Shown here in pieces: positions 40,926-59,428 of a stretch of 64,000 nucleotides of DNA. The notes under the pieces were generated by a model. The model had not been told where the DNA came from. It worked only from the letters and a program-made list of their open reading frames with translations, and did no database searches. The DNA comes from Candidatus Eisenbacteria bacterium (GTDB lineage: Bacteria; Eisenbacteria; RBG-16-71-46; CAIMUX01; JAHJDP01): the NCBI GenBank assembly GCA_018831195.1, contig JAHJDP010000061.1:1-64000 (forward strand), read 5' to 3'. Every line of letters starts with the position of its first letter. Position 1 is the first letter of the stretch. A program made the position numbers and the translations under genes.

Positions 40926-41015
40926 CCTTTCCGCATGAAAAATAGATCTCGCTCGTCGCGTCCTGTTTTACAAGACTGCGGTGGGAGAAATGGACACATC
41001 ACATTGGGTGTCTCA

Positions 41016-44000
41016 ATGAAACGTCGATTCAAGCAGGGTCGGATTCTCTTTCTCGCTCTTTCGGCCATCCTGCTCCTAGCGGTGAAAGCGCCCCAGGAGG
41101 GATTTTCGAAAGAAGCTCGATCGATTGTGGAGGCGCGGACACAAATCCTGTCCCATGGCGACCGCTATCTTGATATTGTTTTGCAATTTCCGCAGGCGGT
41201 CATCGATACCGTTGATCAAGAGGGAGAAGATTTCCACCGGCCGACGCTGCCCGGATGGACGGTATCCGACCGGCTGGGGGAACCGGCGATTCCGAAGAAA
41301 ACATTCTATGTCGCGCTTCCGCCCGGCGGTGGGTACCAGATTGACTATTCTACTGAAAGAGAGGATCAACTCACGGGCATCAATATTCCCGAGGTTTCGA
41401 ATGTGGCCTCTTTGATTTCTTGGCGGGGTGCGGGCTCATCCGAGGCGCCGGTCGTGATCGGTGAACCTTATTGGATCCGCTACCAGAGAGTCCTGCCGGT
41501 AACCGTTTCGCTCTGGCGTGCGGACGGATTATCGCGATCGTTTCATGCGATCCGGCAGCTGCGTCTTACTGTTTCAATGGAAGGGGGCGATGCGGTTTCA
41601 GTGGGCCGCCATCCGGTGAGTTCCGTTGGTGGCGCCCCCGGGGTTTCTGTTCTCAATCCCATCGAAGGACGGATGTGGCTGGCCGCCCCGCAGAAGGGGC
41701 TGAAGAGCCGCACATCGAATATTTTCAGTCTCACGGCAAATCCATGGTTGAAGATGAAGAGCGCCAAGCGAGGGATTTATCGGATTACTCATGATGCCGC
41801 CGCCGAGGCGGGATTTCCCGTGGAAGAAGTGGACCTCTCCAGTCTCCGTTGCTTTGCCGGCGATCAATTGCCGATGGCGCAGGATTTGAATGTAGAAGTC
41901 GATTCCCTCCCCGTCGCAATGAAGGAATGCGCCATCTTGGTGGAAGACGGCGGCGTGATCGGGGTTTGGGAAGAGAATGATGCCGTTCTCTTTCTGGCTA
42001 ATGGACCCGATGGGTGGTATCAGGACCGCGGCGCGGAGAACCGCGGCATGGAGCATTATGCGCGGCATCCTTTATCGTCCTATGGCGCCTATTGGCTGAC
42101 ATGGGGAGGGCTTTTCGAGGGAGAGCCGGCCCGCATGGAGATGATTGAGGGAGATCCCGCCGGTGCGGCGGCGGGCGAAACGGCCGGGGCCCGCTTGCAC
42201 CTGGAACGGAATACTTTTTACGAGCCACGGCAGAGGGATCCGGACGCCACATGGGAGAAGTTCTGGTATCAGCAGGCGCTCAGCAGCGTTAACAATTTCG
42301 AATTCGAAATCTACTTCAATGCCCCCGGCGCTGTCGAAGGGGCGGCCGCCCGGGTCCGAGCGCGCTATTGGGGCGCCAATTATCGCGATACGAATACCCT
42401 TCCCGATCATGTCCTTGTGGCCCGGCTCAATGATGTCCTGGTCGATTCGGTGTCGTGGGAAGCTTATGATCGAAAGGATATCGATCGAACGGTCACCGGG
42501 CTAAAAGCGCGCCAGAATAGATGGCACTACTATCCCCCCTATCTAAATGATCCAAGTGATCCCACCCGATCCGACAAATCCAATCTGGCCTGGATCGATG
42601 TCGATTACCTCCAGGCATTGGAAGCGGTGGATGATTCCCTCGAATTCTTCGGCCCCACGGAGATCGGCGTTCACGCCTTCCGGCTCACCGGTTTTTCCTC
42701 ATCGGCGTCCCCGGCCATTTTTAATGCGACCGATCCCTGGAATCCCTATCAGATTTCGGGATCGTTGGAATCAAGCGGCGGCGGCCTAATGATCACCTTC
42801 GCCGATACCTCATCGGGGAGTACGGCTCCGCATTATGTCGCACTCGATCTCCAAGACAGCGCCACACCGATGGCTCTGGAAACGGTGAACCGGCAGGGAG
42901 ATTGGATCCGCGAGATGGAGGGGCCGGTCGATGCGATCATTATCACCTATCGTGGTTTTGTATCCGCCGCCGAAGATCTTGCTGATTACCACAGGCAGCA
43001 CTTTCCTGACCGTGATGATGCGGTGGTCGTGGTCAAGACGACCGATGAGATCTTCGATGAATTTTCCGCAGGCACAATGGATGTGGCGGCCATGCGGAAT
43101 TTTCTCGAATATGCCTATGTGCATTGGGTGGATCCGGCAAATGAAACGAGGCGTCCCCTTTATGTCACCTTCCTCGGTGACGCTTATTATGATCCCAGGG
43201 ATTATTTGAGAGAGGGCGGCGTTCTTCGAGTGCCGATTTACCTGGATTACTACGACTCTGCTTACGAATTCGATATTTATAATCCCCAGTATTCCTCAGA
43301 TGATTGGTTCGTCTTATTTGACGGCCCCTCTGACAACGGGCTCGACATGATCACGGGACGGCTGCCGGTGAGGGATCTGACTCAGGCGAATGCGCTTGTA
43401 CAAAAAGCAATTTCTTATGAGCAGGATGCGCCTCTCGATTGGTGGAAGACGCGTATCGGGCTGCTTGCCGATGATCGTTGCCAGGGCGTTGAGAGCGACA
43501 ACCTCGGTTTTGCGCATCTGCGCCAGACCGAACAGATCGCCGATTCAATTCTTCCACAATGTTTTCATCCGGACAGGATTTATCTTTATGAATATGGCTG
43601 GCCGTATGACGGCGGCGAATGCCGTTTCCCGACCAAGCCGGAGGCGACGGAGGATCTGCTTTCACTTATCGCCGATGGCATTCTGGTGATGAATTATACG
43701 GGCCATGGGAGCGAAGGGCAGCTCGCCGATGAGCGTCTTCTTGAAACCTCCTTGGTTTCTGCGCTGGATAATGACGATCGTCCCTTTCTCTTTGTCAATG
43801 CCTCCTGTTCGGTGGGCAAGCATGACATCCCGGGCTACGGTCTCGGCGAATCACTCGTTCTTCGGTCCACCGGTGGCGCGATCGCGATGTTCGCCGCCTC
43901 ATCCGTGGCCTCATCCGGCAGCAATGCTCAACTCAACAGAGCTCTCTTTAACCATATGTACCCAGACAAGTGTATAAGCGCGGTGCGGCCGGTCGGTGAA

Positions 44001-45161
44001 GCGGCGCGGCTCTCAAAATTGGAACAGGGTTCATCAGCCAACTCCAAACGCTATATTTTGCTCGGTGATCCCCTCATAACACTGGTTTCTCCACGCTATA
44101 AAATCGATCTCGAATGGATCGCGGCCGGGGACGCCGGACCGGATACCCTGATCCGCGGCGCCGCGGTGAGACTGGCTGGAGCGGTGAGGGATACAGCGGG
44201 TATCCTTTTAGACCAATTCAACGGATCGGTGAGTTTGCGCATCTATGATTCTGAAATCTCCCGCCATCCGAGCCTCTCTGTATATGATGATTACAATCTT
44301 CTCGGTGCGCCGATTTTCCGGGGGGATATGCCGGTATCCGGAGGGGAATTCATTCTAAATTTTATCGTTCCAAAATCTTTGCTTCTCGGCGACAGGGGCT
44401 GGGCAAAAGTTTTCGCCTATGCGCAGAATGGCGATGTCGACGCCGTCGGCTGCCGCTCGGAGATCTGGATCTCCGAAATTGAGGCGGCGCTGACGGATTC
44501 AGAGGGTCCTGAGATTGAATTAAGCTTGTCGTCGTCCGACAGCATCGCCATGCCGGGCGACGAATTTCATATTGCGCTCACAGATTCAAGCGGCATCAAT
44601 ATCACGGAACTGGTCGGCTCCCGTTCGGTCGTGCTCCGTTATAACGATTCGAGCGGGCGGCCCCTTGTGGTTGAGGATTTGGCCCAGCGCATCCATTTCA
44701 ATGGAAATGCGTCGCAGGCGGAAGTCACCACCACCATTCCAGCCTCTCTCCCGTCGGGCAGAACGTATACGGCTGTTCTGCGCGCTTCTGATAATCTCAA
44801 TAATCAATCTGAGGCCAGGCTTACTTTCCGCCTGATATCCGCCGGTGAGGAGCGTCTGACCCTGGGCCGTCTCTTCAATTTCCCCAATCCTTTCGAGGAT
44901 GGGACCGGTTTTTTCTTGGAAGTCGCCCGGGAGGTCAATGTGGAGATTTCTATCTATACGGCCAGAGGGCGACGGATACGGAAAATGGAATGGTGGAATG
45001 AGGACCCGGGGGTGCTGTCCGAAAAGGGACTTTATTGGGATGGGCGTGATGCCGATGGAGACCGTCTTGCCAACGGCATATACTTCTATAGGGTACGGAT
45101 TAATGATCCTCAAACGGGGGAATCGGTGACCCGAACGGAAAAATGTGCGGTTGTTAGATAG
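41016..45161 (+). CDS. porU: PorU-like peptidase C25 (gingipain-type) sortase with FlgD-like C-terminus
   Basis: The start at ATG 41016 begins a signal peptide (KQGRILFLALSAILLLAVK), giving 1381 residues; an in-frame ATG at 40935 is an alternative. After about 600 residues of beta-rich propeptide-like sequence comes the C25 caspase-fold domain, with the catalytic His897 in MNYTGHGSEGQ and Cys931 in NASCSVGKHD. Beta-rich domains follow, and the last 95 residues are FlgD-like (FNFPNPFEDG, IYTARGRRIRKM, GIYFYRVRIND), ending in EKCAVVR. PorU in Bacteroidota cleaves C-terminal signals from type IX cargo and attaches the proteins to a lipid glycan. The porV gene follows directly, as in Bacteroidota. 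The enzyme could alternatively be a secreted gingipain-like protease, but the porV neighbour and architecture favour PorU. Confidence 0.82.
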   Translation: MKRRFKQGRILFLALSAILLLAVKAPQEGFSKEARSIVEARTQILSHGDRYLDIVLQFPQAVIDTVDQEGEDFHRPTLPGWTVSDRLGEPAIPKKTFYVALPPGGGYQIDYSTEREDQLTGINIPEVSNVASLISWRGAGSSEAPVVIGEPYWIRYQRVLPVTVSLWRADGLSRSFHAIRQLRLTVSMEGGDAVSVGRHPVSSVGGAPGVSVLNPIEGRMWLAAPQKGLKSRTSNIFSLTANPWLKMKSAKRGIYRITHDAAAEAGFPVEEVDLSSLRCFAGDQLPMAQDLNVEVDSLPVAMKECAILVEDGGVIGVWEENDAVLFLANGPDGWYQDRGAENRGMEHYARHPLSSYGAYWLTWGGLFEGEPARMEMIEGDPAGAAAGETAGARLHLERNTFYEPRQRDPDATWEKFWYQQALSSVNNFEFEIYFNAPGAVEGAAARVRARYWGANYRDTNTLPDHVLVARLNDVLVDSVSWEAYDRKDIDRTVTGLKARQNRWHYYPPYLNDPSDPTRSDKSNLAWIDVDYLQALEAVDDSLEFFGPTEIGVHAFRLTGFSSSASPAIFNATDPWNPYQISGSLESSGGGLMITFADTSSGSTAPHYVALDLQDSATPMALETVNRQGDWIREMEGPVDAIIITYRGFVSAAEDLADYHRQHFPDRDDAVVVVKTTDEIFDEFSAGTMDVAAMRNFLEYAYVHWVDPANETRRPLYVTFLGDAYYDPRDYLREGGVLRVPIYLDYYDSAYEFDIYNPQYSSDDWFVLFDGPSDNGLDMITGRLPVRDLTQANALVQKAISYEQDAPLDWWKTRIGLLADDRCQGVESDNLGFAHLRQTEQIADSILPQCFHPDRIYLYEYGWPYDGGECRFPTKPEATEDLLSLIADGILVMNYTGHGSEGQLADERLLETSLVSALDNDDRPFLFVNASCSVGKHDIPGYGLGESLVLRSTGGAIAMFAASSVASSGSNAQLNRALFNHMYPDKCISAVRPVGEAARLSKLEQGSSANSKRYILLGDPLITLVSPRYKIDLEWIAAGDAGPDTLIRGAAVRLAGAVRDTAGILLDQFNGSVSLRIYDSEISRHPSLSVYDDYNLLGAPIFRGDMPVSGGEFILNFIVPKSLLLGDRGWAKVFAYAQNGDVDAVGCRSEIWISEIEAALTDSEGPEIELSLSSSDSIAMPGDEFHIALTDSSGINITELVGSRSVVLRYNDSSGRPLVVEDLAQRIHFNGNASQAEVTTTIPASLPSGRTYTAVLRASDNLNNQSEARLTFRLISAGEERLTLGRLFNFPNPFEDGTGFFLEVAREVNVEISIYTARGRRIRKMEWWNEDPGVLSEKGLYWDGRDADGDRLANGIYFYRVRINDPQTGESVTRTEKCAVVR

Positions 45162-45377: not shown

Positions 45378-46358
45378 ATGAGAATGGTGAAATTGTGTCT
45401 CGTCTTGTTTCTTGGTTTGGTTCTCAGCGCGGCAATGGGGTGGCTGGAACCAGCACAAGGACAGGGAACCGCCGCAGCGGCCTCCTTGTTAATTACACCG
45501 GGCGCCCGGGCGGATGCGATGGGGAGAGCCCATTCCGCCGTTGTAAATGATGCCACGGCGAATTGGTGGAACCCAGCGGCCCTGGGAATGATGGAAGATC
45601 GGATCTTCAGCCTCATGCATACCCAGCTGGTGCCCGATTTGGCCGATGATGTCTACTACGAATATCTCGGTTATGCGCAGCACCTCAAAGGGTGGGGCGG
45701 CATCGGTTTTAATATTATTTTCCTGAGCTACGGTACATCCCCAGAGGTTGATGATTTTGGAAATCCAGGAGATGATTTTTATTCTTTTGAAGTGTCTCCC
45801 GGAGTGTCGGCCGGCATTCGTCTTGTTAAAGATCTCTATGGCGGGGTGAGCTTGAAATTTGTGCATGTCGATCTCGCGCCCGAGGGGGCCGGCGGTATTG
45901 AAGGAGAAGGCAAGGGGAATACCTTTGCCGCCGATCTGGGCCTACTCTACAGGCCGACCAACACACCGGTGAGCCTCTCGGCTGTTGTGCAAAATCTTGG
46001 ACCCAATATTGTTTTTCTCTCCAGTGACGACTCACAGCCGATCGGCCGAAACCTAAGGCTGGGATTGGGTCTTTATCTTATGGAAACAGAAGATATGGGA
46101 GTCTTGGCGTCATTCGACTTTAACAAATCGCTTGTCTATAGTAATGAGAAGCCGATTTATAATTGGGGTGCTGAATGGGCCTACCGCAACGTTCTCGCGT
46201 TGCGCGCCGGGTATATTCATGACAAGCAGGGTGAGATTATCGATCCGACCTTCGGATTCGGTCTGGCTTACCACAAATTCACTTTTGAATATGCCAGTGT
46301 TCCGCAAGCTGAAGGGCTGGACAGAGTCAGCAAGTTTTCCATCAATTACCGCTTCTAG
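45378..46358 (+). CDS. porV: PorV/PorQ family outer-membrane protein
   Basis: The 326-residue protein has GGAGG nine bases before its ATG and a signal peptide (CLVLFLGLVLSAAMGWLEPAQGQG). The start of the mature part, SLLITPGARADAMGRAHSAVVNDATANWWNPAAL, is the FadL-like PorV signature, with an N-terminal plug and a predicted 14-strand barrel of alternating residues ending in FSINYRF. In Bacteroidota PorV binds PorU and delivers cargo from the SprA translocon to it. It lies 216 bases after porU. The pair is unusual outside Bacteroidota. Confidence 0.88.
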   Translation: MRMVKLCLVLFLGLVLSAAMGWLEPAQGQGTAAAASLLITPGARADAMGRAHSAVVNDATANWWNPAALGMMEDRIFSLMHTQLVPDLADDVYYEYLGYAQHLKGWGGIGFNIIFLSYGTSPEVDDFGNPGDDFYSFEVSPGVSAGIRLVKDLYGGVSLKFVHVDLAPEGAGGIEGEGKGNTFAADLGLLYRPTNTPVSLSAVVQNLGPNIVFLSSDDSQPIGRNLRLGLGLYLMETEDMGVLASFDFNKSLVYSNEKPIYNWGAEWAYRNVLALRAGYIHDKQGEIIDPTFGFGLAYHKFTFEYASVPQAEGLDRVSKFSINYRF

Positions 46359-46414: not shown

Positions 46415-49400
46415 TTGCGATTATTTCGAGCTTTTGGTGTCCTATTAGGGATTCTTTGCTTCATTCTTCCCCAGTCTATTCAATCGGGTCATAAGCCGAG
46501 GGGTGCCCCCATTCGGGCACTCCAGACGACATTCGGCGGATCCATTCCCCAAAACCCGCAGATGTTGCTTCCTGAACAGGGGAAAGCTCTTTTTGACAGA
46601 ATGAGGGAGTTTCCCGGCCTTCTTAAAAGTTCAGCGGGTGAAGATCCCTACGGTTATTTTAGCCGGGATCATTCCGTCAGGGATAAGCTTGAGGAGATCC
46701 GGAGGGGCGATTGGAAGGCTCTAAATCGGCGGATATCCAATCCGGATAAGAGAATTGAAATCGATACGGTTAATGTCGTCGCTTTGCGGATAGATTTTTT
46801 AAAGGATTCAGCCGGGAACGAATCGACCACAGCCGACGGCGGGTTTGATCTACGATCCGCAGCAGAGGCGAAAGTACCCGTCGATCCACCGCCGCATAAC
46901 AAGTCCTTCTTTGAATCTCATCTTGAAGCCCTGCGACGTTACTACTGGGCCCAATCCGGTCACAGTTTATGGATTGAATATGATGTCTTTCCAGCCGAAG
47001 AGGATTCAGCTTATCACCTTGATGATACGATAAATTACGGCCCCTGGGTCGTCAGCATCGATAATCCGGACCTTCTGACATTGGCGGAACGCTTCATCAA
47101 GGACGCGCTGGTCACAGCGGATACAACCGATGCCGATATCGATTTCAGCAAATACGACAGTTTCCTTCTTTTTCATGCGGGGCCGGATTTTCAGGGCGAC
47201 ATCAATTATGATACTTCCTATGATATTCCTTCATTCAATCTCTTCACCACGGAACCGATTGCTCTGGAAGACTCCACGGTCTTCGTTGACTTGATTATGG
47301 TGGTGCCCGAGACGGTATCACAGGATCGATTTATGGGCGCGCTCAACGGGGTCGTGACGCATGAGTTCGGCCATCAGTTGGGATTTCACGATTTATACAA
47401 TATTTGGACATTCCTGCCGGAAGTTGGAATGTTCAGTTTGATGGATTCCGGTGACAATACCTATGGTGTGCTGCCCGATCCCTATCAAAACAATGAACTT
47501 GTTTTTGTCCGGGGCGCGATCCCCTCGAGTGTGGATCCCTGGCATAAATATCTCTTTTTCCAGGGTGACGCCGAGGGCCCCGGGGTGAGCTTCCGGGAGC
47601 TTGAAAGTCCGGGCGAGGAATCCCTCGATGCGGTTTTGGCATCGAATGAGATACTCCTGTTACCACTGAATTTGGAGGAATGGTATTTCATTGAGAATCG
47701 ACCCTATGACCTGAATGGGGATGGCGCTGTGATCCTCCGCGCTGACTCGTTGACGGGGGTCATTCTTGGTCCCGATAGAGCTGAAGATTCGCCGGAAGAT
47801 ACCCTTGGTGCGCTTGAATATGATTATCTGCTGCCCGGCGGCGGCCTGCTGATTTGGCATATCGACTGGCAGGCGATCAACGACAATCTCAGATATCTTT
47901 ACGGCGGGATCAATATCTTTCACGATCACCGCGGAGTTCAGGTTGTAGAGGCTGATGGTATCCCGGACCTTGGCGATCTATACAGCCCCGAGTGGACGGG
48001 TGGTCCTTATGACTACTGGTATAAGGGAGGTTTTCACCTCTTTGGACCTGACACGGAACCCTCGACCGAGAGCAGCCACGGCACGCCGACCTTTATATCC
48101 ATGGACATTCTCGATCCGGCCGGCGTCACGATGCGCTTTCAATGGGAAAACGGCTGGACTCGTCCGCGGTGGCCCAAGGGCGTCGGCGGCTCATTGGGTT
48201 GGGGCGCTCTCGTCGCCCTTGATCTGGATCAGGATGGCGGCCCCCTGGATATCTTGGCCGGTGGGGATGGTCTTTTTGCCCTTACGGCCGACGGATTCAA
48301 TCTGGCACGCGTTATGGGTGCTGATGGCATCGGCCGCTGGGCCCTATCCGAAGGGCCTTTGTCCGGCGCTCTCGCCTGGAATCCCGATTTTGTTTGGCCT
48401 GACGGTGCCCGAGGGCTGCTGGCCTCAAACAGCCTCGGGGGACAACTGCATCTGTGGGATCTCGCTGAGAAGAGCCCGCGCTTCGTCTGGCCGGATTCTT
48501 TTGTTGCAGCTCAGGAACCTCATATGATCACCGGCTCGCCCGTGATTCTCGACTCGATCGTTGTCGTCGGTGGGGAAGATGGTCGAATCAGAGGTTTTTG
48601 TCCGGGTCTTGAGCAGGCTCTCCTGTGGCGGCTTGAACCAGGGGGAGGGCCGATTACCGCTTTGGGCGCGGGGGATCTGGATGAAGATGGAAGCACCGAA
48701 ATCTATTGGACAACAGAGAATGGACAAATCGGTGTCGCGCACGGATCACAAAACGCCTCCTTCGAGATTGCGGAGGGCTGGCCGGTTACGCCCGATCGCG
48801 AGAGAGGAATGGTTGATCTGATCGGTGCGGTGGCCCGTCCCGAGTATGGAGGGAAGGGTGATCCCGGGGGGCTTTGGGCCCTCGATTCGCGCGGCCGGCT
48901 CTACCGGTGGCCGATTGGGGCCGATGGCTCGAGGGTTGGGGAAGCGGGGGTCATTGATTTTGGTGAACCCCCCGCAGGATACCTGGCCATGGGTGATCTT
49001 GATGGCGATCAACAATTGGAACTCGTCATCCCCCTTGCTTCTGGAACGATCGCTGTTCGCGCTCTCGATGGAAGCCCTGAGAGCCATTTCCCACGCCAGA
49101 TCTGGTCCGCGGATGATGATATTCCCGGTCCTCTGCATGCCCCACCCTTGATTTTACCGCCGGCCGGTGACGATATCGGGCTGATTTTCCAACCCAGACC
49201 GCGGGGCGAACTCTCCGCCATCGGCGCTGATGGCCGGCAGGCGTGGGGATGGCCCCAAACACTGGGGTATGAAGTCACGGGCGCCCTGTGGGTTGGTGAC
49301 CTGGAGGGCGACGGAGATTTAGAGGTCGTCGTGGGAGATACAAGGGGCTGGATTACCCTCCTCGATGTCCCCCGAACGATCCCGGACAGCAGGAAGGGGG

Positions 49401-49768
49401 ACTGGTGTACCCCGGGAGGGAACGCCATGAGAACGCGCTTCGTCGATGATTCGCGCATCCCCATTCCGGAGGCCGCCGGCGATGACCTGGTGAGTGGACC
49501 CGCCAAAATCTACCCGAATCCGGTCAGGAGCGGACAAGCCACCCTTGATATCCCCCTGACACAACCGGCCCACATTAAACTCGAAGCGCTTGATGCGGAG
49601 GGACGCAAGGTGGAGTCCTGGGAATGGACGGCAGCGGGCGCTCCCGACGGGGAACGTCTTCCCTTCGATGTGACGAATCTTGCGCCGGGGTTCTACCTCT
49701 GTCGCATTCAGGTTGAAGGAGCGTCGGGGTCGTATTCCACGCTGAAGAAGTTGGCTGTGGTCCGTTGA
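46415..49768 (+). CDS. Secreted M6 (immune inhibitor A-type) metalloprotease with FG-GAP-like repeats and C-terminal sorting-type domain
   Basis: The 1117-residue protein starts at TTG 46415, four bases after GGAGGAG, and has a signal peptide (FGVLLGILCFILPQSIQSG). The zinc site is His316-Glu-Phe-Gly-His320 in the extended motif HExxHxxGxxD (HEFGHQLGFHD). Repeats in the second half read GDLDEDGSTEIYW, GDLDGDQQLELVIPL and GDLEGDGDLEVVVGD, as in FG-GAP-type calcium-binding beta-propellers. The last 80 residues are FlgD/type IX-like (KIYPNPVRSGQ, GFYLCRIQ) and end in KKLAVVR. It is a likely cargo of the PorU-PorV system encoded just upstream. Confidence 0.87.
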   Translation: MRLFRAFGVLLGILCFILPQSIQSGHKPRGAPIRALQTTFGGSIPQNPQMLLPEQGKALFDRMREFPGLLKSSAGEDPYGYFSRDHSVRDKLEEIRRGDWKALNRRISNPDKRIEIDTVNVVALRIDFLKDSAGNESTTADGGFDLRSAAEAKVPVDPPPHNKSFFESHLEALRRYYWAQSGHSLWIEYDVFPAEEDSAYHLDDTINYGPWVVSIDNPDLLTLAERFIKDALVTADTTDADIDFSKYDSFLLFHAGPDFQGDINYDTSYDIPSFNLFTTEPIALEDSTVFVDLIMVVPETVSQDRFMGALNGVVTHEFGHQLGFHDLYNIWTFLPEVGMFSLMDSGDNTYGVLPDPYQNNELVFVRGAIPSSVDPWHKYLFFQGDAEGPGVSFRELESPGEESLDAVLASNEILLLPLNLEEWYFIENRPYDLNGDGAVILRADSLTGVILGPDRAEDSPEDTLGALEYDYLLPGGGLLIWHIDWQAINDNLRYLYGGINIFHDHRGVQVVEADGIPDLGDLYSPEWTGGPYDYWYKGGFHLFGPDTEPSTESSHGTPTFISMDILDPAGVTMRFQWENGWTRPRWPKGVGGSLGWGALVALDLDQDGGPLDILAGGDGLFALTADGFNLARVMGADGIGRWALSEGPLSGALAWNPDFVWPDGARGLLASNSLGGQLHLWDLAEKSPRFVWPDSFVAAQEPHMITGSPVILDSIVVVGGEDGRIRGFCPGLEQALLWRLEPGGGPITALGAGDLDEDGSTEIYWTTENGQIGVAHGSQNASFEIAEGWPVTPDRERGMVDLIGAVARPEYGGKGDPGGLWALDSRGRLYRWPIGADGSRVGEAGVIDFGEPPAGYLAMGDLDGDQQLELVIPLASGTIAVRALDGSPESHFPRQIWSADDDIPGPLHAPPLILPPAGDDIGLIFQPRPRGELSAIGADGRQAWGWPQTLGYEVTGALWVGDLEGDGDLEVVVGDTRGWITLLDVPRTIPDSRKGDWCTPGGNAMRTRFVDDSRIPIPEAAGDDLVSGPAKIYPNPVRSGQATLDIPLTQPAHIKLEALDAEGRKVESWEWTAAGAPDGERLPFDVTNLAPGFYLCRIQVEGASGSYSTLKKLAVVR

Positions 49769-49804: not shown

Positions 49805-50623
49805 ATGAGGGAGCGATTGCAGAAGAGGGGGGCCGTAGGCGGATGTTCCTCATCCTCGCTCGTCGCTCTCATGCTCTTTTGCGCCCTCCTGCTTTCACCT
49901 ACGGCGTCGATAGCGGCTGAAGGCGCGGAGCAAAGCATCTGGATCCCTACAGGTCTTTATACCAGCCGCATGCTTGACCCATCGCCGCCGCTGGAGCTGA
50001 TGATGGGGAATGATGCAAAAGGTCTCGTTTCCGGGGATGAAGAACTTCAAGAACCCTCGCCGGCGCTGGCCGTTGCCCTGTCTGCTGTTATGCCGGGAGC
50101 CGGACAACTCTACTCGGGAAACAGAAGAGGGTTGATCTATTTCGCTGTTGAAGTGGCGGCGCTGATCGCGCACTTCTCCTACAGATCGGATGGGCATCGA
50201 AAGGAAGACCAGTTCAAAGACTTCGCCGATGCGCAATGGGATACGCTGCGGTACCGGGAGGGCTCGGGTATCGAGGGGTGTTCCTGGTCGGAGGAGTCGG
50301 ATTCGACCATCGTAGACCTCATGCAGAACCATAGGAACCGTTACTACGAACAGGTTGCGAGAGAGGAATATGCCTGCGGCTGGCGAGAGCCTTGGCAGCG
50401 TGATGACTATCGAGAATTGAGAGATGTCTCCAATTCTCTTCTCGGGAAAGCCAATACAGCCATGACAATCATCTTTCTCAATCACATTGTCAGCGCTGTG
50501 GATGCCTTTCGCATAGCGCGGTCGATGCGGATGGAGGTTGCGCCGCAAACGGAATTGCGAATGGATGTTGAAGGCGATTATCGAAGGCCGCGGGCCGTAT
50601 TCCGACTGGTTAGACATCTCTAG
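49805..50623 (+). CDS. Membrane protein with MPGAGQLYSG motif (DUF5683-like)
   Basis: The 272-residue protein has an N-terminal signal anchor (LVALMLFCALLLSPTASIA). The core reads ALSAVMPGAGQLYSGNRRGLIYF, followed by helices and a charged, Tyr-rich middle. MPGAGQLY resembles the DUF5683 signature of small outer-membrane-associated proteins in FCB bacteria. The C-terminal 60 residues contain a helix (AMTIIFLNHIVSAVDAFRIARS). It shares its layout with the next gene (GWGQKM, MIGVGIVNRLLSAIDAARSF), so the two are paralogous. The function is unknown; position suggests a role in the secretion locus. Confidence 0.65.
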   Translation: MRERLQKRGAVGGCSSSSLVALMLFCALLLSPTASIAAEGAEQSIWIPTGLYTSRMLDPSPPLELMMGNDAKGLVSGDEELQEPSPALAVALSAVMPGAGQLYSGNRRGLIYFAVEVAALIAHFSYRSDGHRKEDQFKDFADAQWDTLRYREGSGIEGCSWSEESDSTIVDLMQNHRNRYYEQVAREEYACGWREPWQRDDYRELRDVSNSLLGKANTAMTIIFLNHIVSAVDAFRIARSMRMEVAPQTELRMDVEGDYRRPRAVFRLVRHL

Positions 50624-50632
50624 GAGAGTTAT

Positions 50633-51394
50633 ATGAACCGCCGTATTTTAACAATATTAATGTTTCTGGCGATCTGTGGCGCTCCGGTGCTTTCCGCCTT
50701 GGCGCAAGCCTCCCCCTTTGAGAATGCTGATTTATCCCCGGCTCTCATCTTCAACTCACAGAGCGCCGGAAGCGCACCTTATCATGAAACCTCCCGAATG
50801 AAGGTTATCGCCGCCTCGATGGCGATACCGGGCTGGGGACAAAAGATGACGGGTCACAGCGGCAGGGCGGAGGCTTTTCTGGGCGCTGAAATTGGAATCT
50901 GGACCGCGTTTACCGTTTTTCAGGTACAAGGACACTTGCGGCGGAACAGCTATATCGATTATGCCGAGGTCATGGCCGGCGTTCAAAATGGTGATAACGC
51001 TTCAGAGGAGTATTATCGAAATGTCGGCCGCTATATGAGCACGGAAGATTATATGCAGGATGTCCAACGTGATGCGCGCGCCCGGTACCTCGACGACTTG
51101 GAGGCGCGGCGGGCCTATGTCGAAAACCATTCCATCCCCACCGACCGGAGATGGGAGTGGGAAAACCAAAGTGATCGCCATCGATACCGGGACAAACGTT
51201 CCGCAAGTATGAGCGCGTATCAGCGACGCACCTATATGATCGGGGTGGGTATCGTCAACCGCCTGCTCAGCGCCATAGATGCCGCACGTTCATTCCAGGC
51301 GCCTGGATCGAATCGGGGCCTTACGTTTCATTTGCAGCCGGATCCAGATAACCGGGGGCCGCTTCAATTCTGTGTGTCGATCCCCATTCCCTAG
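50633..51394 (+). CDS. Paralogous membrane protein with PGWGQKMTG motif (DUF5683-like)
   Basis: The 253-residue protein starts nine bases after its paralogue, with GGAGAG upstream. Signal peptide: ILTILMFLAICGAPVLSALA. The core ASMAIPGWGQKMTGHSGRAEAF mirrors the MPGAGQLYSG core of the preceding gene. The middle is polar, Arg/Tyr/Glu-rich and probably helical (YMSTEDYMQDVQRDARARYLDDLE), and a C-terminal helix closes it. Probably exported or membrane-anchored. Function unknown. Confidence 0.65.
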   Translation: MNRRILTILMFLAICGAPVLSALAQASPFENADLSPALIFNSQSAGSAPYHETSRMKVIAASMAIPGWGQKMTGHSGRAEAFLGAEIGIWTAFTVFQVQGHLRRNSYIDYAEVMAGVQNGDNASEEYYRNVGRYMSTEDYMQDVQRDARARYLDDLEARRAYVENHSIPTDRRWEWENQSDRHRYRDKRSASMSAYQRRTYMIGVGIVNRLLSAIDAARSFQAPGSNRGLTFHLQPDPDNRGPLQFCVSIPIP

Positions 51395-51424: not shown

Positions 51425-52408
51425 TTGGTGTCTCTTATGATCTTTCGTCCGGTCCGATGGGCTTTCGTTGCGTTACGGATAATCATTCTATTTGCTCTAT
51501 GCTGTCTCCCTTCTGTATCCATCGCTGAAGAACAAATCGTTTCCGAGGTGGTACAATCTCTTCCTCTTCCCAACAGACTCCTTCTGCCGATTTCCCCGAC
51601 GTTGGATCCCCTTGGACGGGTGTTGATTATCGATGGCTCCAATGGGGCCATTTGGGTCATTGACCCGGAAAAGAGTCAGCCGTCGCAAACATTTCTTGCG
51701 TCCGGACAGGCCTCTCCTGTTCTGGAAAACCCGACAAAAATCTTTGCTGATTGGGGCCTGCATGTATATACATTAGATCCATCGCTCCAACGAATCTCCG
51801 TCTTTGATCTACAAGGACGGTTTGAAACATCATTTGATTTGGAAGCCGCTTTGACCGAGGCGGCGCACTCATCAGATGTGGAGTTCACAGATCTGGTAGT
51901 TGATAAAACAGGTTCTCTCGCTGTACTGGACCGTCTGGAGGGCCGGGTATTTATATTCGATCCAAATGGAAAACTGAACAGGGTACTCGGTGAAGACTTT
52001 ACGGGAGATGAACGGCTTATCGCGCCCACAAACCTGGAAATCGATCCGGTGGGAAATCTTTATGTGGCCGACCCACCCTCCGGACGTGTTTTGCAGATTG
52101 GCCGGCAAGGCAGCTTGCTGCGTATTTGGAAATTGCGTGATGAGGAACATCCACAATCCCGCCCTACCGAGCTTGCCTATTCAAGCGGCGTTCTTTGGGT
52201 TGCCGATCCTGGTGAGAGAAGGATGCTGGCGCTCTTCCCGGGAAAGGTGGATTCAGAGTCCCGTCAATTAAAGATGTTGCGGTTCGAGTGGCTGGACCGC
52301 ACCTCTCTGGAATTGGCCGGTATTGCGGATGGCCGTCTTTTAGTTCTGGATTCCCGGGGGCGACGGCTTCATCTCATTTCCGACCCATATTCTCAGACCG
52401 GCCGGTAG
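51425..52408 (+). CDS. Secreted six-bladed beta-propeller (NHL-like) protein
   Basis: The 327-residue protein can start at TTG 51425, GTG 51428 or ATG 51437; a weak GGGAAG site favours one of the first two. The signal peptide is FVALRIIILFALCCLPSVSIAEE. Repeats of about 45 residues follow the NHL pattern: PLGRVLIIDGSNGAIWVID, KTGSLAVLDRLEGRVFIFD, PVGNLYVADPPSGRVLQIG, SSGVLWVADPGERRMLALF. NHL propellers bind proteins or glycans; no catalytic motif is seen. The next gene, for the large outer-membrane protein, starts 9 bases after its stop, so it may be part of one complex. Confidence 0.75.
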   Translation: MVSLMIFRPVRWAFVALRIIILFALCCLPSVSIAEEQIVSEVVQSLPLPNRLLLPISPTLDPLGRVLIIDGSNGAIWVIDPEKSQPSQTFLASGQASPVLENPTKIFADWGLHVYTLDPSLQRISVFDLQGRFETSFDLEAALTEAAHSSDVEFTDLVVDKTGSLAVLDRLEGRVFIFDPNGKLNRVLGEDFTGDERLIAPTNLEIDPVGNLYVADPPSGRVLQIGRQGSLLRIWKLRDEEHPQSRPTELAYSSGVLWVADPGERRMLALFPGKVDSESRQLKMLRFEWLDRTSLELAGIADGRLLVLDSRGRRLHLISDPYSQTGR

Positions 52409-52416
52409 GGGGGCGG

Positions 52417-55400
52417 ATGCGTTGTTACATCCGCTGTCTGCTCTTTATTATCTTGGGGGTTTGTTTAACCTCCCGCCTGGATGCCGGTGACGCGCCCGCC
52501 AAACAGCAGGTGCACCGACCCGGCCACGCCGCAATGAGGCTTTGGATTGAGGCCGCTGCCGAGACATTATATTTACCGCATCATCATATTGAGCCGCATT
52601 CCCTCGCGATGGAGTGGATGGGCCGCCGTTGGCTGTGCGGTGATTCTCTTCGCCTGGAGCCGTCGCTGGGATTTCTCATTTTGCCATTTGCCGCACCCGC
52701 GGCTGATTCGGCTGTGATCGAATATAATTACTTGCCGATAGACCTTCCCGTTATGTATAGCCATCGGCGCATTGAGGAAAGTACCGGTGGGGAGGCGCCC
52801 AAGGTCGTGGAGGAGCGTAAGAGTCCCAGAAATGCGCAACCGGATACAAAACTTAATATTTCGGGGAGCAAAACATTCAGTGTAGAGATGGGTTCCCAGC
52901 AGGACCTCGCCGTAGATCAAACATTAGATCTAACCATAACGGGCCGCGTTTCCTCCAATGTGAAGGTGCAGGCCATCCTGACAGACCGCGAGACCCCTCT
53001 GCAGCCTGAGGGGACCACTCGCGAATTGGAGGATCTTGACAAGGTTTATCTTCGAATCGAGGCCCCGGATGCCCAATTGGATCTTGGCGACCTGGAAATC
53101 GAGGAATCGGGTCTACGCCTTGCTTCATTCCAACGCCAACTGGAGGGCGTGGATGGTCGTGTTCGAATAGGATCGCATGAAACTCATGCCGTCGGCGCGG
53201 TTTCCAGGGGCCGTTTTCGATCTCTTGAATTCTTCGGCGCGGAGGGCCGGCAAGGCCCCTATGCTCTTCTGGGTAGAGAGGAAGATGGCGTCATCGTCGC
53301 GGGAAGCGAAGTCGTGTGGCTGGACGGTCAGAAACTGCAGCGGGGAGAAACAGAGAGCTATATTATCGATTACAGCCTTGGTGAATTGACCTTTACAAGC
53401 CGCCACCCGATGTCTGAACGTTCTGAGATCGTCGTCGATTTCGAGGTGTCACTCGAGTCCTACCGGCGAAGCCTTTATTCTTTGGCCCTGCGGTCGGTGA
53501 TCCCCGGATCGCGTGGCCTCTGGAGAATACTCTACCTTCGAGAACAGGATGACCGCGCCCATCCCTTGGGCCTTGTTCTATCGGACGAAGAATCATCACT
53601 GCTCGAAGAGGTCGGGGATGGTATAGCACCGGGTCTTGATTCCGGGATTCAATATGTGGGTCCCTTGCACGGCGATTATGCGAAGGTGGAAGTGGACACT
53701 GTGTCCCAGGCGATATTCCGTTATATGGGCCCGGATAGCGGTTCCTATGTCGTTCATTTTGTCGAAGTAGGAGATGGAAGCGGTGATTACCTGGAAGCAC
53801 ATACCTATGGCGTTACCTATTATGTCTATGCCGGCGAGAATAAAGGGGATTATAAACCTGGCCGAGCGGTTCCTCGACCTGTAGCGCTCGAAGTGGGGGA
53901 TATTTCCCTGGTTTTGGAGCGGGGTCTAGCGCGGGTCGAGGCCGAAGGCGCATTTTCACGTTACGATCGAAATGCATTTTCAGACAAGGATGATGGTGAT
54001 AATGTCGATGGCGCCTATACAATAAATACAACATTGAAATCACCGATGCTGCGGATACTCGGGGGTGAGATCGGCCATTTTGAAACACGTCTGCGCGCCC
54101 GCCAGGTTGGCGACCGCTACCAAGCCCCGGGCCGCCTTCAATCCGGATTCTACGAAAAGGAATGGAATGCACCCTCCGGGACACTGAACGGCCGGGAGAG
54201 GGAACAGGGCGCTGAACTGCGTCTCGTAGCGACAGAGAAAGTTAACGTGGGAGCGGGCTGGGACCGGCTTGAATCTTGGTCCGGTTTTGAAGCACGGCGG
54301 CTGACGGCGGACTTTGCAATGGCCTCCTGGGCACGGCTTGAGGGGCGGATGACGCGTGTGGCTTCGGAAGACTCAATAGGTTTGAAAGGAGAACGGTCAA
54401 CCGAACGGATCCGTGTCGCGGATAAAAACGGGCGTCTTGATTTTACCTATCTGAGGGAAAATTCGACATGGGGAAAGGGCGCGACAGCCACCGGATACCA
54501 ATTCCGGGATCTTGATGCGACCGTTCGCCGGGGACAACCTGATCGTGGATTGAACCTGAGAGCCCGCATCAATTGGAGGCGCCATTGGGTATTGAATGGA
54601 GGCAAAGAGCAACGGGACAATGATGGTCTGACAACGGAACTGGAATCCGAATGGAGGGGGACTCCCTCTTTTCGAGCCGGAGCGCTTTTTGTAAGGCGTA
54701 AACTTCATTCCTACACGGAAAATCCCGGTCGAACAACCTATCTGGGCCAGTTGAATATTTCACAGTCATTATGGAATGGAGCCTGGACGACACAGTGGAG
54801 AACGGAGGCTACCTCACAGGCCGTAAAGATCCGGGATCAGATCATTACTTTTGTAGGAGAAAACCTAGGGCATTACGACGCATTGGGACGTTACATCGGC
54901 GTTGGGGACTACGAAGTCTTTTACAATGATCTAGGCGCCGAGGAACTCCAGTCGATTCTTGATGTCACGGGGAAATGGACGGCGGCTCCGGGCAAAAGAG
55001 TCAAGGAGCGCCGCCATCCAACCGGCAACCGATGGGTGAATGAAGCGGAGTGGTCTTTCTATCTGCGGACGCGTGTGGAAAGCCCGGAAAAGCTCACCAC
55101 CATCATCGCTGAGCCGGGCCGCTGGTGGGGGCGGCATGGGGAGGCTTCCAGTGGATCAGGCAATATCCGCTCGGATATCCGGTTGTTAACCAGGACACCG
55201 GAATTCTCCCCCACCATCCGTTGGGAGGGAAAGACAAGAATCAACAGAAGTCCCAATGGCATTGAGGAGAGAGAGCAGACAAAGACCCTGCAACTATCCG
55301 CGACGTCATCCCCGCATGACCGGCTGCGCCTTGAAGGCAAGCAAATGTGGACGGATGAGGAACGCCGGACATCGCTGGGAAGCTTTCAGGGGTTGTCCGA

Positions 55401-55782
55401 TACAGCCGGTTTAATCAAGAGGCGCACTGAACTGACGGCGGTTTACCGGGTCATTCGAATGATCCGACTGAGACTTCAGACAGCCGCAGTATCAGAAAGA
55501 GAGGAGACGATCACCAGAAGACACCTATGGGAATTGACGCCTGGTCTTGTCCTTAATTTGACCGGCGGCCGGGCCGAATTGCGCGTGAAGAGACTTTGGG
55601 CGACAGGCGATGAAACAACATCACGGATTTTCAATTTGGAGAAGCCGGGTTGGACGGTGCGCGCCACGGCTGATCTCCGTCTTCAAAAATACATTGACCT
55701 GAACTACTGGCTGGAAAGCCACCACCCGGATGAGGGAAAGGCTGTCGTCAGCAGCCGGGTTTCGGTACGGGCGATATTTTAA
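52417..55782 (+). CDS. Large predicted outer-membrane protein with SprA-style motifs (candidate type IX translocon)
   Basis: ATG 52417 follows GGGGGG and starts a signal peptide (CLLFIILGVCLTSRLDAG); the product has 1121 residues. An N-terminal domain of about 130 residues is followed by a long run of alternating polar/hydrophobic strands typical of a beta-barrel. Motifs recall SprA of Bacteroidota: VDQTLDLTITGRV and PLQPEGTTRELEDLDKVY, then LDGQKLQRGE with YIIDYSLGELTF, and later many Arg/Trp-rich strands to the last residues RVSVRAIF, an aromatic-ended beta-signal. SprA is usually more than twice as long, so this would be a short relative or only an analogue. It lies between the propeller gene and an Omp85 gene, 6 kb after porU-porV. 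The family assignment is tentative. Confidence 0.6.
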   Translation: MRCYIRCLLFIILGVCLTSRLDAGDAPAKQQVHRPGHAAMRLWIEAAAETLYLPHHHIEPHSLAMEWMGRRWLCGDSLRLEPSLGFLILPFAAPAADSAVIEYNYLPIDLPVMYSHRRIEESTGGEAPKVVEERKSPRNAQPDTKLNISGSKTFSVEMGSQQDLAVDQTLDLTITGRVSSNVKVQAILTDRETPLQPEGTTRELEDLDKVYLRIEAPDAQLDLGDLEIEESGLRLASFQRQLEGVDGRVRIGSHETHAVGAVSRGRFRSLEFFGAEGRQGPYALLGREEDGVIVAGSEVVWLDGQKLQRGETESYIIDYSLGELTFTSRHPMSERSEIVVDFEVSLESYRRSLYSLALRSVIPGSRGLWRILYLREQDDRAHPLGLVLSDEESSLLEEVGDGIAPGLDSGIQYVGPLHGDYAKVEVDTVSQAIFRYMGPDSGSYVVHFVEVGDGSGDYLEAHTYGVTYYVYAGENKGDYKPGRAVPRPVALEVGDISLVLERGLARVEAEGAFSRYDRNAFSDKDDGDNVDGAYTINTTLKSPMLRILGGEIGHFETRLRARQVGDRYQAPGRLQSGFYEKEWNAPSGTLNGREREQGAELRLVATEKVNVGAGWDRLESWSGFEARRLTADFAMASWARLEGRMTRVASEDSIGLKGERSTERIRVADKNGRLDFTYLRENSTWGKGATATGYQFRDLDATVRRGQPDRGLNLRARINWRRHWVLNGGKEQRDNDGLTTELESEWRGTPSFRAGALFVRRKLHSYTENPGRTTYLGQLNISQSLWNGAWTTQWRTEATSQAVKIRDQIITFVGENLGHYDALGRYIGVGDYEVFYNDLGAEELQSILDVTGKWTAAPGKRVKERRHPTGNRWVNEAEWSFYLRTRVESPEKLTTIIAEPGRWWGRHGEASSGSGNIRSDIRLLTRTPEFSPTIRWEGKTRINRSPNGIEEREQTKTLQLSATSSPHDRLRLEGKQMWTDEERRTSLGSFQGLSDTAGLIKRRTELTAVYRVIRMIRLRLQTAAVSEREETITRRHLWELTPGLVLNLTGGRAELRVKRLWATGDETTSRIFNLEKPGWTVRATADLRLQKYIDLNYWLESHHPDEGKAVVSSRVSVRAIF

Positions 55783-55789
55783 CAAATAT

Positions 55790-57565
55790 ATGATGATATA
55801 TTTTAAACATCAGCGTTGGGCGGGAATAGTGCGGGAGCTTTGTGCTATTATGCTCTTCATGCCTTTCTGGATCCTGCCGGTGACCGCGCAGAAATCACTT
55901 CCGACGAACATTGAGTTCGAGGGGGGCGATAACGACATCCGCAAAAAAATCCGGGATATTCTCTCCGTTCAAAGGGCCGGACCGTTTGATTCCAAGGAAG
56001 CTGTTAGCCGGAGAGAGGCTCTGCTTCATCTTATGGTCCGTGAGGGGTATTGGGGGGCTGAGATCAGAGGGCCCTGGACCGAAAATGATCAAGTGAATTG
56101 GCGTGTTGCACCCGGCCCGGTATGGTCGCTTACCGCTGTTCATATCGTGACGATCAAACCGGATTCACTGCCCATTGACTGGTTTCCAAGGAAAGATCGT
56201 ATCCGTCATGATTTGGAGCAGGTCTACCGCATCAAGAGCGAGGCCTTCCTTAAGTCTGCTGATGATCTCCTATCCTTCTGGGATGATCACGGCCACCCTT
56301 TTGCGTCGGTTTCTTTTGTTCAGCCCGTTATGAAGGATGGTCAGCTGTCGGTGACGCTCGAGGTTGACCCAGGTCCTCTGGTTTTTGTGAAAGAGGTTGA
56401 CTTTCGGGGGAGTCACCATACGCGTCCGGAATTTTTGAAGAGAGTGATACGGGCCTCTGCTGATCTCGACGAGCCATATGATGAGCGCCATTGGAAAAGG
56501 GGCACCGGCCGGCTTCAATCGCTGGGGCTTTTTGCGGGGATTTACGGCCCGCGTTTGGAACTGATCCCGGCGGAAGCGGCAGCCGGAAGCCTTTCCTCGC
56601 GGGTTGTCTATCAAATCGAAGCGGCCGCCTACAATCAATTCGAGGCGGTTGCCGGCTATTCGGGTCAGAACCGGACTCTGTCAGGAATTATACATATCAA
56701 CTTGGGAAATCTCTTCGGCACGGGTCGTTCCTTTGGCTTGATGTGGGAGCGCCGGGAAAAAGACCACACGGGTTTTAATCTGAGATATGACGAACCGTCC
56801 CTCTGGAAGCTTCCTTTACGGTGGTATGCCGAGGTAGCCCATTTTTTAGAGGATACTCTATATACCCGCACCGATTTTAAAAGCGCCGTCTCTTGGGAAA
56901 TGGACGATAATCTGTGGCTGGATGTCGGTTACCGGCATGAAAAAAATGTCGCTGCTGAATCGCTCGGTGGGAAAAACTCCCGATCCTCCTCTCTTTTTGG
57001 CCTGCGATGGGAGGGATTGGGGGGTGATCCCGATAGGGAAAAGGGACTCTCAGCCGGTTTATCCTATTCGACGGGAAAATCACAATCTTCCAGGGATGGT
57101 TTGGGGGAAGAGACGGTCCATGAGATCATGATGAAGGGTGAAGGCCGGCATCCCCTTCCTTTTTTGGGCGTCGGCCGTCTTTTGATTCAAAGTTCCAGCC
57201 GGATCCTCAAGAACCCGATTCCGATGTACGAGACCTATCTTATTGGGGGATCCCGGACGCTCCGAGGGTATCGTGAGGAAGCCTTTCGAGTTATCCGCTA
57301 TGGTGTCTTTCAGATGGAAGTGGGTCCGCGGTTGGGTCCCGGGGGGGCGCGATGGCTCGTTTTTCTGGACACGGCCATCATCTCTCCTTGGGCGAGGGAG
57401 GATGGGATCCTGGGCTCGAAAGGCCCTCTCGAGACACACGGATCCTACGGGATTGGGATCAGATCCCTTTCACGGCGGGGTCTGGTTTGTATAGACTATG
57501 GTGTGCCCTGGGGGGAAGATCCCACGGCGGGGCGCCTGCATCTCTCTTTTAATGCTCCCTTCTAG
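55790..57565 (+). CDS. Omp85-family outer-membrane assembly protein (TamA/BamA-like)
   Basis: I take the ATG at 55790 (591 residues), just after the stop of the preceding gene; an in-frame ATG at 55730 would overlap it, and none has a strong ribosome site. The signal peptide is LCAIMLFMPFWILPVTAQ. Two to three POTRA-like units lie in the first 270 residues (YWGAEIRGPW, PFASVSFVQP, VDFRGSHHTRPEFLKRVI), fewer than the five of BamA. A 16-strand barrel follows, with the loop-6 motif GGSRTLRGYREEAF near residue 505 and an aromatic C-terminal Phe. It probably inserts outer-membrane proteins, perhaps the adjacent 1121-aa protein. Confidence 0.85.
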   Translation: MMIYFKHQRWAGIVRELCAIMLFMPFWILPVTAQKSLPTNIEFEGGDNDIRKKIRDILSVQRAGPFDSKEAVSRREALLHLMVREGYWGAEIRGPWTENDQVNWRVAPGPVWSLTAVHIVTIKPDSLPIDWFPRKDRIRHDLEQVYRIKSEAFLKSADDLLSFWDDHGHPFASVSFVQPVMKDGQLSVTLEVDPGPLVFVKEVDFRGSHHTRPEFLKRVIRASADLDEPYDERHWKRGTGRLQSLGLFAGIYGPRLELIPAEAAAGSLSSRVVYQIEAAAYNQFEAVAGYSGQNRTLSGIIHINLGNLFGTGRSFGLMWERREKDHTGFNLRYDEPSLWKLPLRWYAEVAHFLEDTLYTRTDFKSAVSWEMDDNLWLDVGYRHEKNVAAESLGGKNSRSSSLFGLRWEGLGGDPDREKGLSAGLSYSTGKSQSSRDGLGEETVHEIMMKGEGRHPLPFLGVGRLLIQSSSRILKNPIPMYETYLIGGSRTLRGYREEAFRVIRYGVFQMEVGPRLGPGGARWLVFLDTAIISPWAREDGILGSKGPLETHGSYGIGIRSLSRRGLVCIDYGVPWGEDPTAGRLHLSFNAPF

Positions 57566-57670
57566 GACCGTTTTGGGTGCGGTAGTGGTAGAATGATGAA
57601 TCCGGTGAGGGCGAGATGACGCCGACCGCGTCATTCTGTGATGGAGCTGTAGACCGTCTGGAGGAATATG

Positions 57671-59428
57671 ATGAAGCCAAACAATATAGGGGTTCCTTGG
57701 CATCACGGTGTCATTCTTGCGGGAGCCGCCATTCTTGTGGTTTTTCTCGCTGCATGTGGCGGGGGTGGGAATGATCCCATTGTGATAAAGATGGAGGGGA
57801 AGGAAATTCCTCTATCTATTGTCATCAGTGAATTCAACCGCGTTAACGGGGACGAAAGTTATGACGGGGCGACGCCGGGTGAGCGGCTTGCCTTTGCGCA
57901 AACTCTGGCCCACAAGGAAGTTGTGCTGAGTGAAGCGCACAAAATGGTAAAGGGGCCGTCAAAAGTAGCGCAGGTACAAATCCGCCGTTATAAGGAACGC
58001 CGGATCCTGGGAGCCTTTTGGGGAAATGCGATGAGTGAGAATGCCATCTCCCCGGACTCCTTGGCGTTTTATCGAAATCTCTTCGGCCAAGAGAGGCTTA
58101 TCAGCCGGATTCAGGTCGGGACCACTGAATTGGCCCAGGAATTGATAGGGCGGATTCAAAATGGGGAGAGTTTCGAAAGCTTGGCGCGGGAATACTCCAG
58201 CGATACCGAGAGCCGGGACAGCGGTGGTCGCGTCGGCTGGATCCAATATGACAGCGATGGGTGGCAGGCGATGGCCCCTGTCATTTTTACAGAGATTCAG
58301 AAAGGTGAATTTTCAAGAATGCCCCTCTCAACCTTGACGGGCTATCACATTATACGCGTCGATGATATTCGTATGCGCGAGTCTTCACCAGAAAAGGAAA
58401 AGCAGTGGGAAGCCGCGGCCATCCAATTGTACAATCAGAATCTTCAGCGGAGCATTCGGGATAAGATGCTTCAATCCCGGAGTTTTCTCATGAATGATGA
58501 TGCGCTCCGTATTATTCGGCGCGGCTTCTACGCATTCTGGGATTCATTGAATGCAATTCAGACAACAGTAGGCGGAGTTGAATATAGGGAACTTGATCCG
58601 CCGGGGGACAAATATTTTAATTCGGAAGAACTTTCAACAACCCTGTTTACCTACACTAACAGAGGTTGGTCGATCGCAGATTTTCTGGAGTCGCTCAATT
58701 ACTGCGACTTGGAATTCTGGCCGAATAAATCTCCGACGGTGGAAGCAACGGCGCTCTATGTGAGAAGAAGAATGTTCCGCTGGTTCGCTGTTGAGGAATG
58801 CGAAGAGAGAGGCTGGGACAAGGATGCCTATGTTGTTGATGCCGTCGATCGGTACACCGAGAGAATGCTCCTCGATGATTATCACACGCAGGTTTTGGCC
58901 AAAGAGGTGGCGCCCACGGATGAGGAGATAAGGGTCTACTATGAGGCGCATAAAGCAGACTTTCTAAAACACGATATGGTTGATTTCGGCTGCATCCTCT
59001 ATCCCGCGGGGGAAAAGGAACGGGCGCAAAGGGCAACAGGCCGCCTCCGCCAGGGACACACCTGGGAAAGTGTCGGACAAGAGGAATCGGTCATTCTGCC
59101 GGATGTCCGCTTCATTCCGGCGACAGGATTGACGCAGGGGGATGCGTTCCCCGAATTCGCCCATGTGGCCAAGCAATTGGTCGATTCAGGAAAGCTGCCG
59201 CTGAATACCTATAGTGATCCGGTGGAGGTCGTCGGAACATGGGCTGTTTTCCGGGTCACCTCGCGGGTGCCGGGAGAACCGCTGGCATGGGAGGTGGCAA
59301 AGATCTTTACCACCAAGATGCTGGTAGATGAAGGTGTTGACCGGCTGCTGGCGACGAAATTGCCCCTCCTCTGCAAAGCATATAAATTGGAGATCAATGA
59401 GGAACCTCTCAAAGAAGCCGCTTCCTAA
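57671..59428 (+). CDS. PpiC/SurA-type peptidyl-prolyl isomerase lipoprotein
   Basis: The second ATG (57671) has GGAGG seven bases upstream; 585 residues. The lipobox is VFLAAC, giving a lipid-anchored protein with a Gly-rich start. A SurA_N-like helical region follows, then a parvulin domain (residues about 145-235; SFESLAREYSSDTESRDSGG, then GYHIIRVDD). The remaining 350 residues are largely helical and contain a second, weaker parvulin-like stretch (DFGCILYPAGEKERAQ). It would chaperone outer-membrane or secreted proteins in the periplasm, in line with the Omp85 gene 105 bases upstream. Its 3' end overlaps ligA by 20 bases, convergently. Confidence 0.85.
   Translation: MKPNNIGVPWHHGVILAGAAILVVFLAACGGGGNDPIVIKMEGKEIPLSIVISEFNRVNGDESYDGATPGERLAFAQTLAHKEVVLSEAHKMVKGPSKVAQVQIRRYKERRILGAFWGNAMSENAISPDSLAFYRNLFGQERLISRIQVGTTELAQELIGRIQNGESFESLAREYSSDTESRDSGGRVGWIQYDSDGWQAMAPVIFTEIQKGEFSRMPLSTLTGYHIIRVDDIRMRESSPEKEKQWEAAAIQLYNQNLQRSIRDKMLQSRSFLMNDDALRIIRRGFYAFWDSLNAIQTTVGGVEYRELDPPGDKYFNSEELSTTLFTYTNRGWSIADFLESLNYCDLEFWPNKSPTVEATALYVRRRMFRWFAVEECEERGWDKDAYVVDAVDRYTERMLLDDYHTQVLAKEVAPTDEEIRVYYEAHKADFLKHDMVDFGCILYPAGEKERAQRATGRLRQGHTWESVGQEESVILPDVRFIPATGLTQGDAFPEFAHVAKQLVDSGKLPLNTYSDPVEVVGTWAVFRVTSRVPGEPLAWEVAKIFTTKMLVDEGVDRLLATKLPLLCKAYKLEINEEPLKEAAS

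Follow-up and report, generated by a model that had tools for sequence, protein, structure and literature searches.

Does a bacterium outside the Bacteroidota possess a type IX secretion system and, if so, which of its parts? Descriptions of the type IX system generally present it as a machine of the Bacteroidota driven by a rotary motor, and the question is raised by a locus in a genome of Candidatus Eisenbacteria bacterium (assembly GCA_018831195.1), within the first 64,000 nucleotides of contig JAHJDP010000061.1, the stretch of DNA that was analysed here and is referred to as the window. Nine consecutive open reading frames (ORFs), all on the plus strand and separated by short gaps, lie at approximately 40935-59428, the region delimited in an earlier reading of the sequence (the original prediction). 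Named by Pfam and NCBIfam model searches, they encode, in order, PorU, a PorV-family protein, an M6-like protease, two DUF5683-like proteins, an NHL propeller, a giant barrel, an Omp85 protein, and a lipoprotein with peptidyl-prolyl isomerase (PPIase) domains. This locus is very probably the operon for the sortase and shuttle of a genuine type IX system; the motor proteins GldL, GldM, and GldN were not detected. The reading is built on observed components and their conservation: PorU, the PorV family, SprA, and many proteins with C-terminal domains (CTDs) of the sorting type were all found in the genome.

Sortase, shuttle, and translocon

The product of 41016-45161 (+), a C25 cysteine peptidase that itself carries a C-terminal Ig-like domain, is by its sequence a true PorU, the type IX sortase. 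It matched the NCBIfam equivalog NF033707 over its full length (549 bits over 1140 aa, cut-off 420), and its best PDB match was the solved PorU of P. gingivalis (6za2, E 7.9e-55); the regions of the catalytic His and Cys were aligned. This pair, His924 and Cys958 when numbered by the ORF that opens at 40935, was invariant in all 21 sequences aligned. The start at 41016 is plausible, being Met28 of the 40935 ORF with a signal peptide right after it. The original prediction had called this C25 protein PorU-like, and profile and PDB matches both placed it with PorU rather than with ordinary C25 proteases. A second long C25 protein (about 1400 aa, contig C12:176641-179295 of the same genome) matched two separate parts of the PorU model; many genomes of the phylum hold comparable partial matches, which perhaps represent a PorU2-like family.

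The next gene, at 45378-46358 (+), encodes an outer-membrane shuttle of the PorV/PorQ family, which is probably PorV itself. Its product passed the cut-off of the PorV/PorQ subfamily model NF033709 (180.5 bits, cut-off 90) and that of PF19572 (40.6 bits), and matched PorV of F. johnsoniae in the PDB (6h3i_F, E 5e-9). The expectation that PorV directly follows PorU thus held at the level of the family, but not at that of the PorV equivalog, whose cut-off is taken up below.

A true SprA was found by profile search on another contig of the source genome (5.24 Mb in 123 contigs, 99.3% complete). The match at C32:183970-188487, within a 2181-aa ORF, scored 549.7 bits against a cut-off of 200, and the protein also matched solved SprA in the PDB (E 5e-38). 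Its gene (L037:11269-17814) adjoins lptF and lptG, which function in lipopolysaccharide (LPS) export, and accC, pilT, and efp are close by. The assignment of a type IX sortase and shuttle locus to an Eisenbacteria genome was strengthened by this SprA, while the notion of a compact, self-contained machine had to be given up because the translocon is encoded on another contig.

Candidate cargo proteins

At least 150 FlgD_ig-type CTD matches were found in the genome (150 of 254 candidates scored). All 40 of the CTDs sampled ended no more than 25 residues from the stop codon, 31 of them no more than 15, and most had a hydrophobic end with Arg or Lys as the last residue, as did PorU and the M6-like protein. 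Within the window, a DNRLRE-domain protein (1868-4528, +) has a C-terminal sorting domain above the TIGR04183 cut-off. A 1036-aa protein with a C-terminal FlgD_ig domain (22803-25913, -) is a further probable cargo.

The third gene of the operon (46415-49768, +) encodes an M6-like metalloprotease with a HEFGH motif, FG-GAP repeats, and a C-terminal sorting-like domain, in agreement with the metalloprotease with a FlgD/type IX-like C-terminal domain first described there. It scored 194.6 bits against NF052323 (type IX-dependent M6-like inactivated metalloprotease), below the cut-off of 600, and weakly against Por_Secre_tail (E 2.9e-4). The domain layout and the sorting-like tail are those of the NF052323 family, while the sub-threshold score and an intact HExxH motif set the window protein apart from it. 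Orthologues were found in 39 sources, and the extended motif HExxHxxGxx[DE] was kept in 22 of 30 full-length copies. The M6-like protease is probably a cargo protein conserved in the operon.

Conservation of the operon

PorU was found in all 47 Eisenbacteria genomes searched, the barrel in 46, and SprA in 43, and each of the three was present in all 26 of the high-quality genomes. PorU and the barrel often shared a contig, with several kb between them. Scanning public genomes with the alignment of the barrel gave 122 relatives, of which 80 were kept; the records were labelled Eisenbacteria, Krumholzibacteriota, Zixibacteria, Latescibacterota, KSB1, Calditrichota, Marinimicrobia, Fermentibacteria, Gemmatimonadetes, TA06, and LCP-89. 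PorV and the M6-like protease were encoded upstream in 26 of the 48 loci with enough sequence, and the titles of these 26 named Eisenbacteria, Krumholzibacteriota, Zixibacteria, or TA06, or gave no phylum. A Gemmatimonadetes locus (L091) carried the M6-like gene and the DUF5683 pair, its sequence being too short further upstream.

The gene-neighbourhood survey that had been proposed for this locus therefore showed that the operon recurs in several other phyla of the Fibrobacteres-Chlorobi-Bacteroidetes (FCB) group, and its gene order is not due to chance because that order recurs in many genomes and phyla. In the tree of barrel sequences, the window grouped with the Eisenbacteria rows, and the operon label required 4 changes compared with 16.8 in shuffles, which indicates clustered inheritance.

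Search for the motor

For Bacteroidota, the mechanism by which the motor powers the translocon has been described (PMC10994853, PMC12635249), and TIGRFAM and Pfam profiles have served to find type IX systems in Bacteroidetes (PMC4793230). The original prediction had seen no PorK, PorL, PorM, or PorN in the window, and the genome search extended this: with no motor-positive genome as a control, GldM had no match in the source genome and GldL gave only noise (E 0.72). GldM was above the cut-off in none of 30 barrel-bearing genomes of other phyla, 29 of which had SprA above its cut-off, and GldN was found in none of the 47 Eisenbacteria genomes and none of 82 genomes of the phylum of locus L089, which includes KSB1 and Calditrichota. 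The GldL, GldM, and GldN searches covered no genome known to have the motor and no Bacteroidota, so the absence is suggestive rather than proof. These results suggest that the standard motor may be missing, which is the most interesting point of the locus.

Four strong MotA/ExbB loci were present in the genome. One resembles ExbBDD-TonB, another ExbBD-TonB, the third a TolQR-like pair accompanied by a TonB_C-like protein, and the fourth MotAB. A fifth match was weak and was left unassigned. A dedicated motor among these homologues was rejected, as the four strong loci look like the systems just named and none of them lies beside type IX genes.

It is a substantial possibility, if somewhat short of an even one, that the locus belongs to a complete, ordinary type IX system in which a PorK/L/M/N motor is present and too diverged to detect, in which case nothing would be mechanistically new. 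A diverged motor would be in keeping with a PorV that is itself diverged, and no motor model was tried on a genome known to contain one. However, SprA and PorU exceeded curated cut-offs in the same genomes in which GldM, GldL, and GldN gave nothing or noise, and Caldithrix abyssi has been reported to be without Bacteroidetes-type gliding machinery (PMC5317091).

The giant barrel and its Omp85 neighbour

The seventh gene of the operon (52417-55782, +) encodes a 1121-aa protein that had been taken for the translocon on account of SprA-style motifs. This did not hold: the protein scored only 15.5-17.5 bits against the SprA model, over about 50 positions and against the cut-off of 200, and the true SprA is that on contig C32. 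The protein has almost no family match in Pfam or NCBIfam. Alignment with SprA by hhalign recovered one common module of 83 columns (P 96.4). An AlphaFold2 model (predicted local distance difference test, pLDDT, 81.7) contained about 40 long strands past residue 144. In the structural comparison that had been suggested, the four top PDB hits found by Foldseek were all SprA chains (E 5.6e-11 to 4.8e-8), but the TM-scores to SprA structures were low, at 0.25-0.30, with root-mean-square deviations of 26-31 Å. As judged from sequence and predicted structure, the protein is probably a separate giant barrel, distantly related to SprA, and is not SprA. It has in common with SprA/Sov (PDB 6h3i, 8gl8) a giant, in its case predicted, outer-membrane beta-barrel, the 83-residue module, and the best Foldseek matches; it is unlike them in length (1121 aa, compared with 2181 aa for the SprA of this genome), in its 15.5-bit score and low TM-scores, and in being encoded by a separate gene. 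A 1428-aa protein with a weak match to the SprA module is encoded elsewhere in the genome (C84:5010-15775, L038); behind it are FlgD_ig proteins and a C25 protease that is gingipain-like and has a CTD of its own.

Directly behind the barrel, at 55790-57565 (+), an Omp85 protein is encoded, for which the start at 55790 was preferred over that at 55730. Both hallmarks of the superfamily, POTRA domains and an Omp85 barrel, were recognised by Pfam (PF01103, 37.5 bits; PF07244), in an AlphaFold2 model (pLDDT 83.4, about three POTRA domains and a barrel), and by Foldseek, in which that model matched BamA (E 7.9e-29) and TamA (4c00, E 4.3e-24). An Omp85 assembly factor had been anticipated at this position. 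The protein is like BamA and TamA in these features; its POTRA domains number about three, the count in TamA, instead of five, and its gene differs from theirs in lying directly behind a giant barrel, a placement that suggests a dedicated insertase for that barrel.

On the other side of the barrel gene is that for an NHL-type beta-propeller with a signal peptide (51425-52408, +; PF01436, 36.6 bits). The propeller gene immediately preceded that of the barrel in 63 of 70 loci and Omp85 was downstream in 47 of 58 under a strict rule, several of the misses being over-called starts. NHL, barrel, and Omp85 are a co-inherited unit of the FCB group, with a distribution wider than that of the operon: in KSB1, Calditrichota, Marinimicrobia, and Fermentibacteria this triad stood alone, in varied contexts.

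That solitary occurrence, the restriction of the likeness to a single 83-residue module, and the low TM-scores would fit an arrangement in which the giant barrel and Omp85 play no part in type IX secretion and form an unrelated outer-membrane channel, for example for glycans or lipids, which lies beside porU and porV by chance in some phyla. This is conceivable, and the balance tips slightly against it given the near-perfect co-occurrence of the barrel with SprA, its linkage to the PorU-PorV operon in several phyla, a state that is inherited in clusters, and SprA chains as its four best PDB matches. A last reading would make PorU an ordinary secreted C25 protease and the CTDs generic Ig-like domains, and would leave the genome without a type IX system. 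It is highly improbable: FlgD_ig-like domains do occur in flagellar hook proteins and C25 proteases do occur as cargo, but the full-length equivalog-level match, PorU as best PDB hit, and a true SprA in the genome contradict it.

Proposed mechanism and significance

Several points weigh against the type IX reading preferred here. The PorV gene missed the PorV equivalog cut-off (108 bits, cut-off 250), and most CTDs were found by FlgD_ig and not by the Bacteroidota sorting model. The search for type IX components covered PorU, PorV, SprA, GldL, GldM, and GldN. Across the genomes searched, the GldN model gave no match and that of GldM none above its cut-off, so that diverged forms may have been missed, and the link between the barrel and secretion comes from gene order, co-occurrence, and fold only.

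Under the type IX reading, cargo proteins, which have a signal peptide at the N-terminus and an Ig-like domain at the C-terminus, would cross the inner membrane by Sec and then exit through the SprA channel encoded elsewhere in the genome. By analogy with Bacteroidota, PorV would take the cargo over and PorU would remove the CTD and attach the protein to the surface, where the anchor may be LPS. Omp85 probably inserts the giant barrel, which might in turn, though this is put forward tentatively, act jointly with the type IX translocon or alongside it. Since GldL, GldM, and GldN were not detected, energy would probably come from another proton-driven pair (ExbBD-TonB or TolQR-like) in the genome or from a motor that has diverged beyond the reach of the models. 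A broader proposal is rather doubtful at present: that FCB phyla outside the Bacteroidota run type IX secretion without a PorL/M motor, using another energy source or substrate folding, that the second barrel and Omp85 take part, and that GldKLMN is a later addition of the Bacteroidota shared with gliding.

As in the type IX systems of P. gingivalis and F. johnsoniae, PorU, the PorV family, SprA, and numerous C-terminal sorting domains are present. In contrast to those systems, GldM and GldL were not found in the genome nor GldN in the phylum, the genes are arranged as an operon of PorU-PorV-M6-DUF5683x2-NHL-barrel-Omp85, the CTDs match FlgD_ig, and there is a second giant barrel. A 2016 survey placed type IX systems in Bacteroidetes only (PMC4793230). 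The setting outside the Bacteroidota that had been pointed out for this locus is real, although earlier work had already suspected such systems in other FCB phyla (PMC11285876, PMC12611786); Chlorobiota are a group without SprA (PMC12611786). A literature search for Eisenbacteria and type IX secretion, which did not extend to most subscription journals, found no paper. New here are the conservation across the phylum, a second giant barrel that has an Omp85 gene next to it, and a standard motor that appears to be lacking. A sortase, shuttle, translocon, and candidate cargo without detectable GldL, GldM, or GldN would uncouple outer-membrane export from the known motor and would let the origin of that motor be dated. 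The analysis also names an uncharacterised barrel-Omp85 pair conserved over much of the FCB group, and it suggests a function for many C-terminal Ig-like domains in these uncultured phyla.

Other genes of the locus and its neighbours

Between the M6-like protease and the NHL propeller are two DUF5683-like proteins, the first with a signal peptide (49805-50623, +; PF18935, E 1.4e-4, below cut-off) and the second a weak match when taken alone (50633-51394, +; PF18935, E 0.18). Profile searches of other loci grouped the two together, and the pair is conserved within the operon. The last gene (57668-59428, +) encodes a lipoprotein with parvulin-type PPIase domains (Rotamase_2/_3; PrsA/SurA-like), which was recognised in just one further locus. 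It is a local gene outside the conserved core, and its role as a conserved chaperone part of the operon, one of the assembly chaperones said to be bundled with the machine, was rejected.

Divergent from porU, at 36095-40588 (-), are genes for an MsbA-like lipid A exporter, a heptosyltransferase, and an O-antigen ligase (Wzy_C, 70.4 bits). The full set was also found upstream of PorU in one genome of the same order (G001, L228), and the heptosyltransferase in two others of that order (G002 and G007); LPS genes were not seen beside PorU in the remaining upstream regions fetched. A phylum-wide link between LPS genes and porU was rejected, the recurrence being confined to the same order and hence local.

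On the other side, the nine-gene cluster is followed by LigA on the minus strand (59409-61457). LigA follows the cluster in 24 sources (loci L083-L159), and it lies on the strand of the cluster in nearly all sources, being inverted in the window and in L080.

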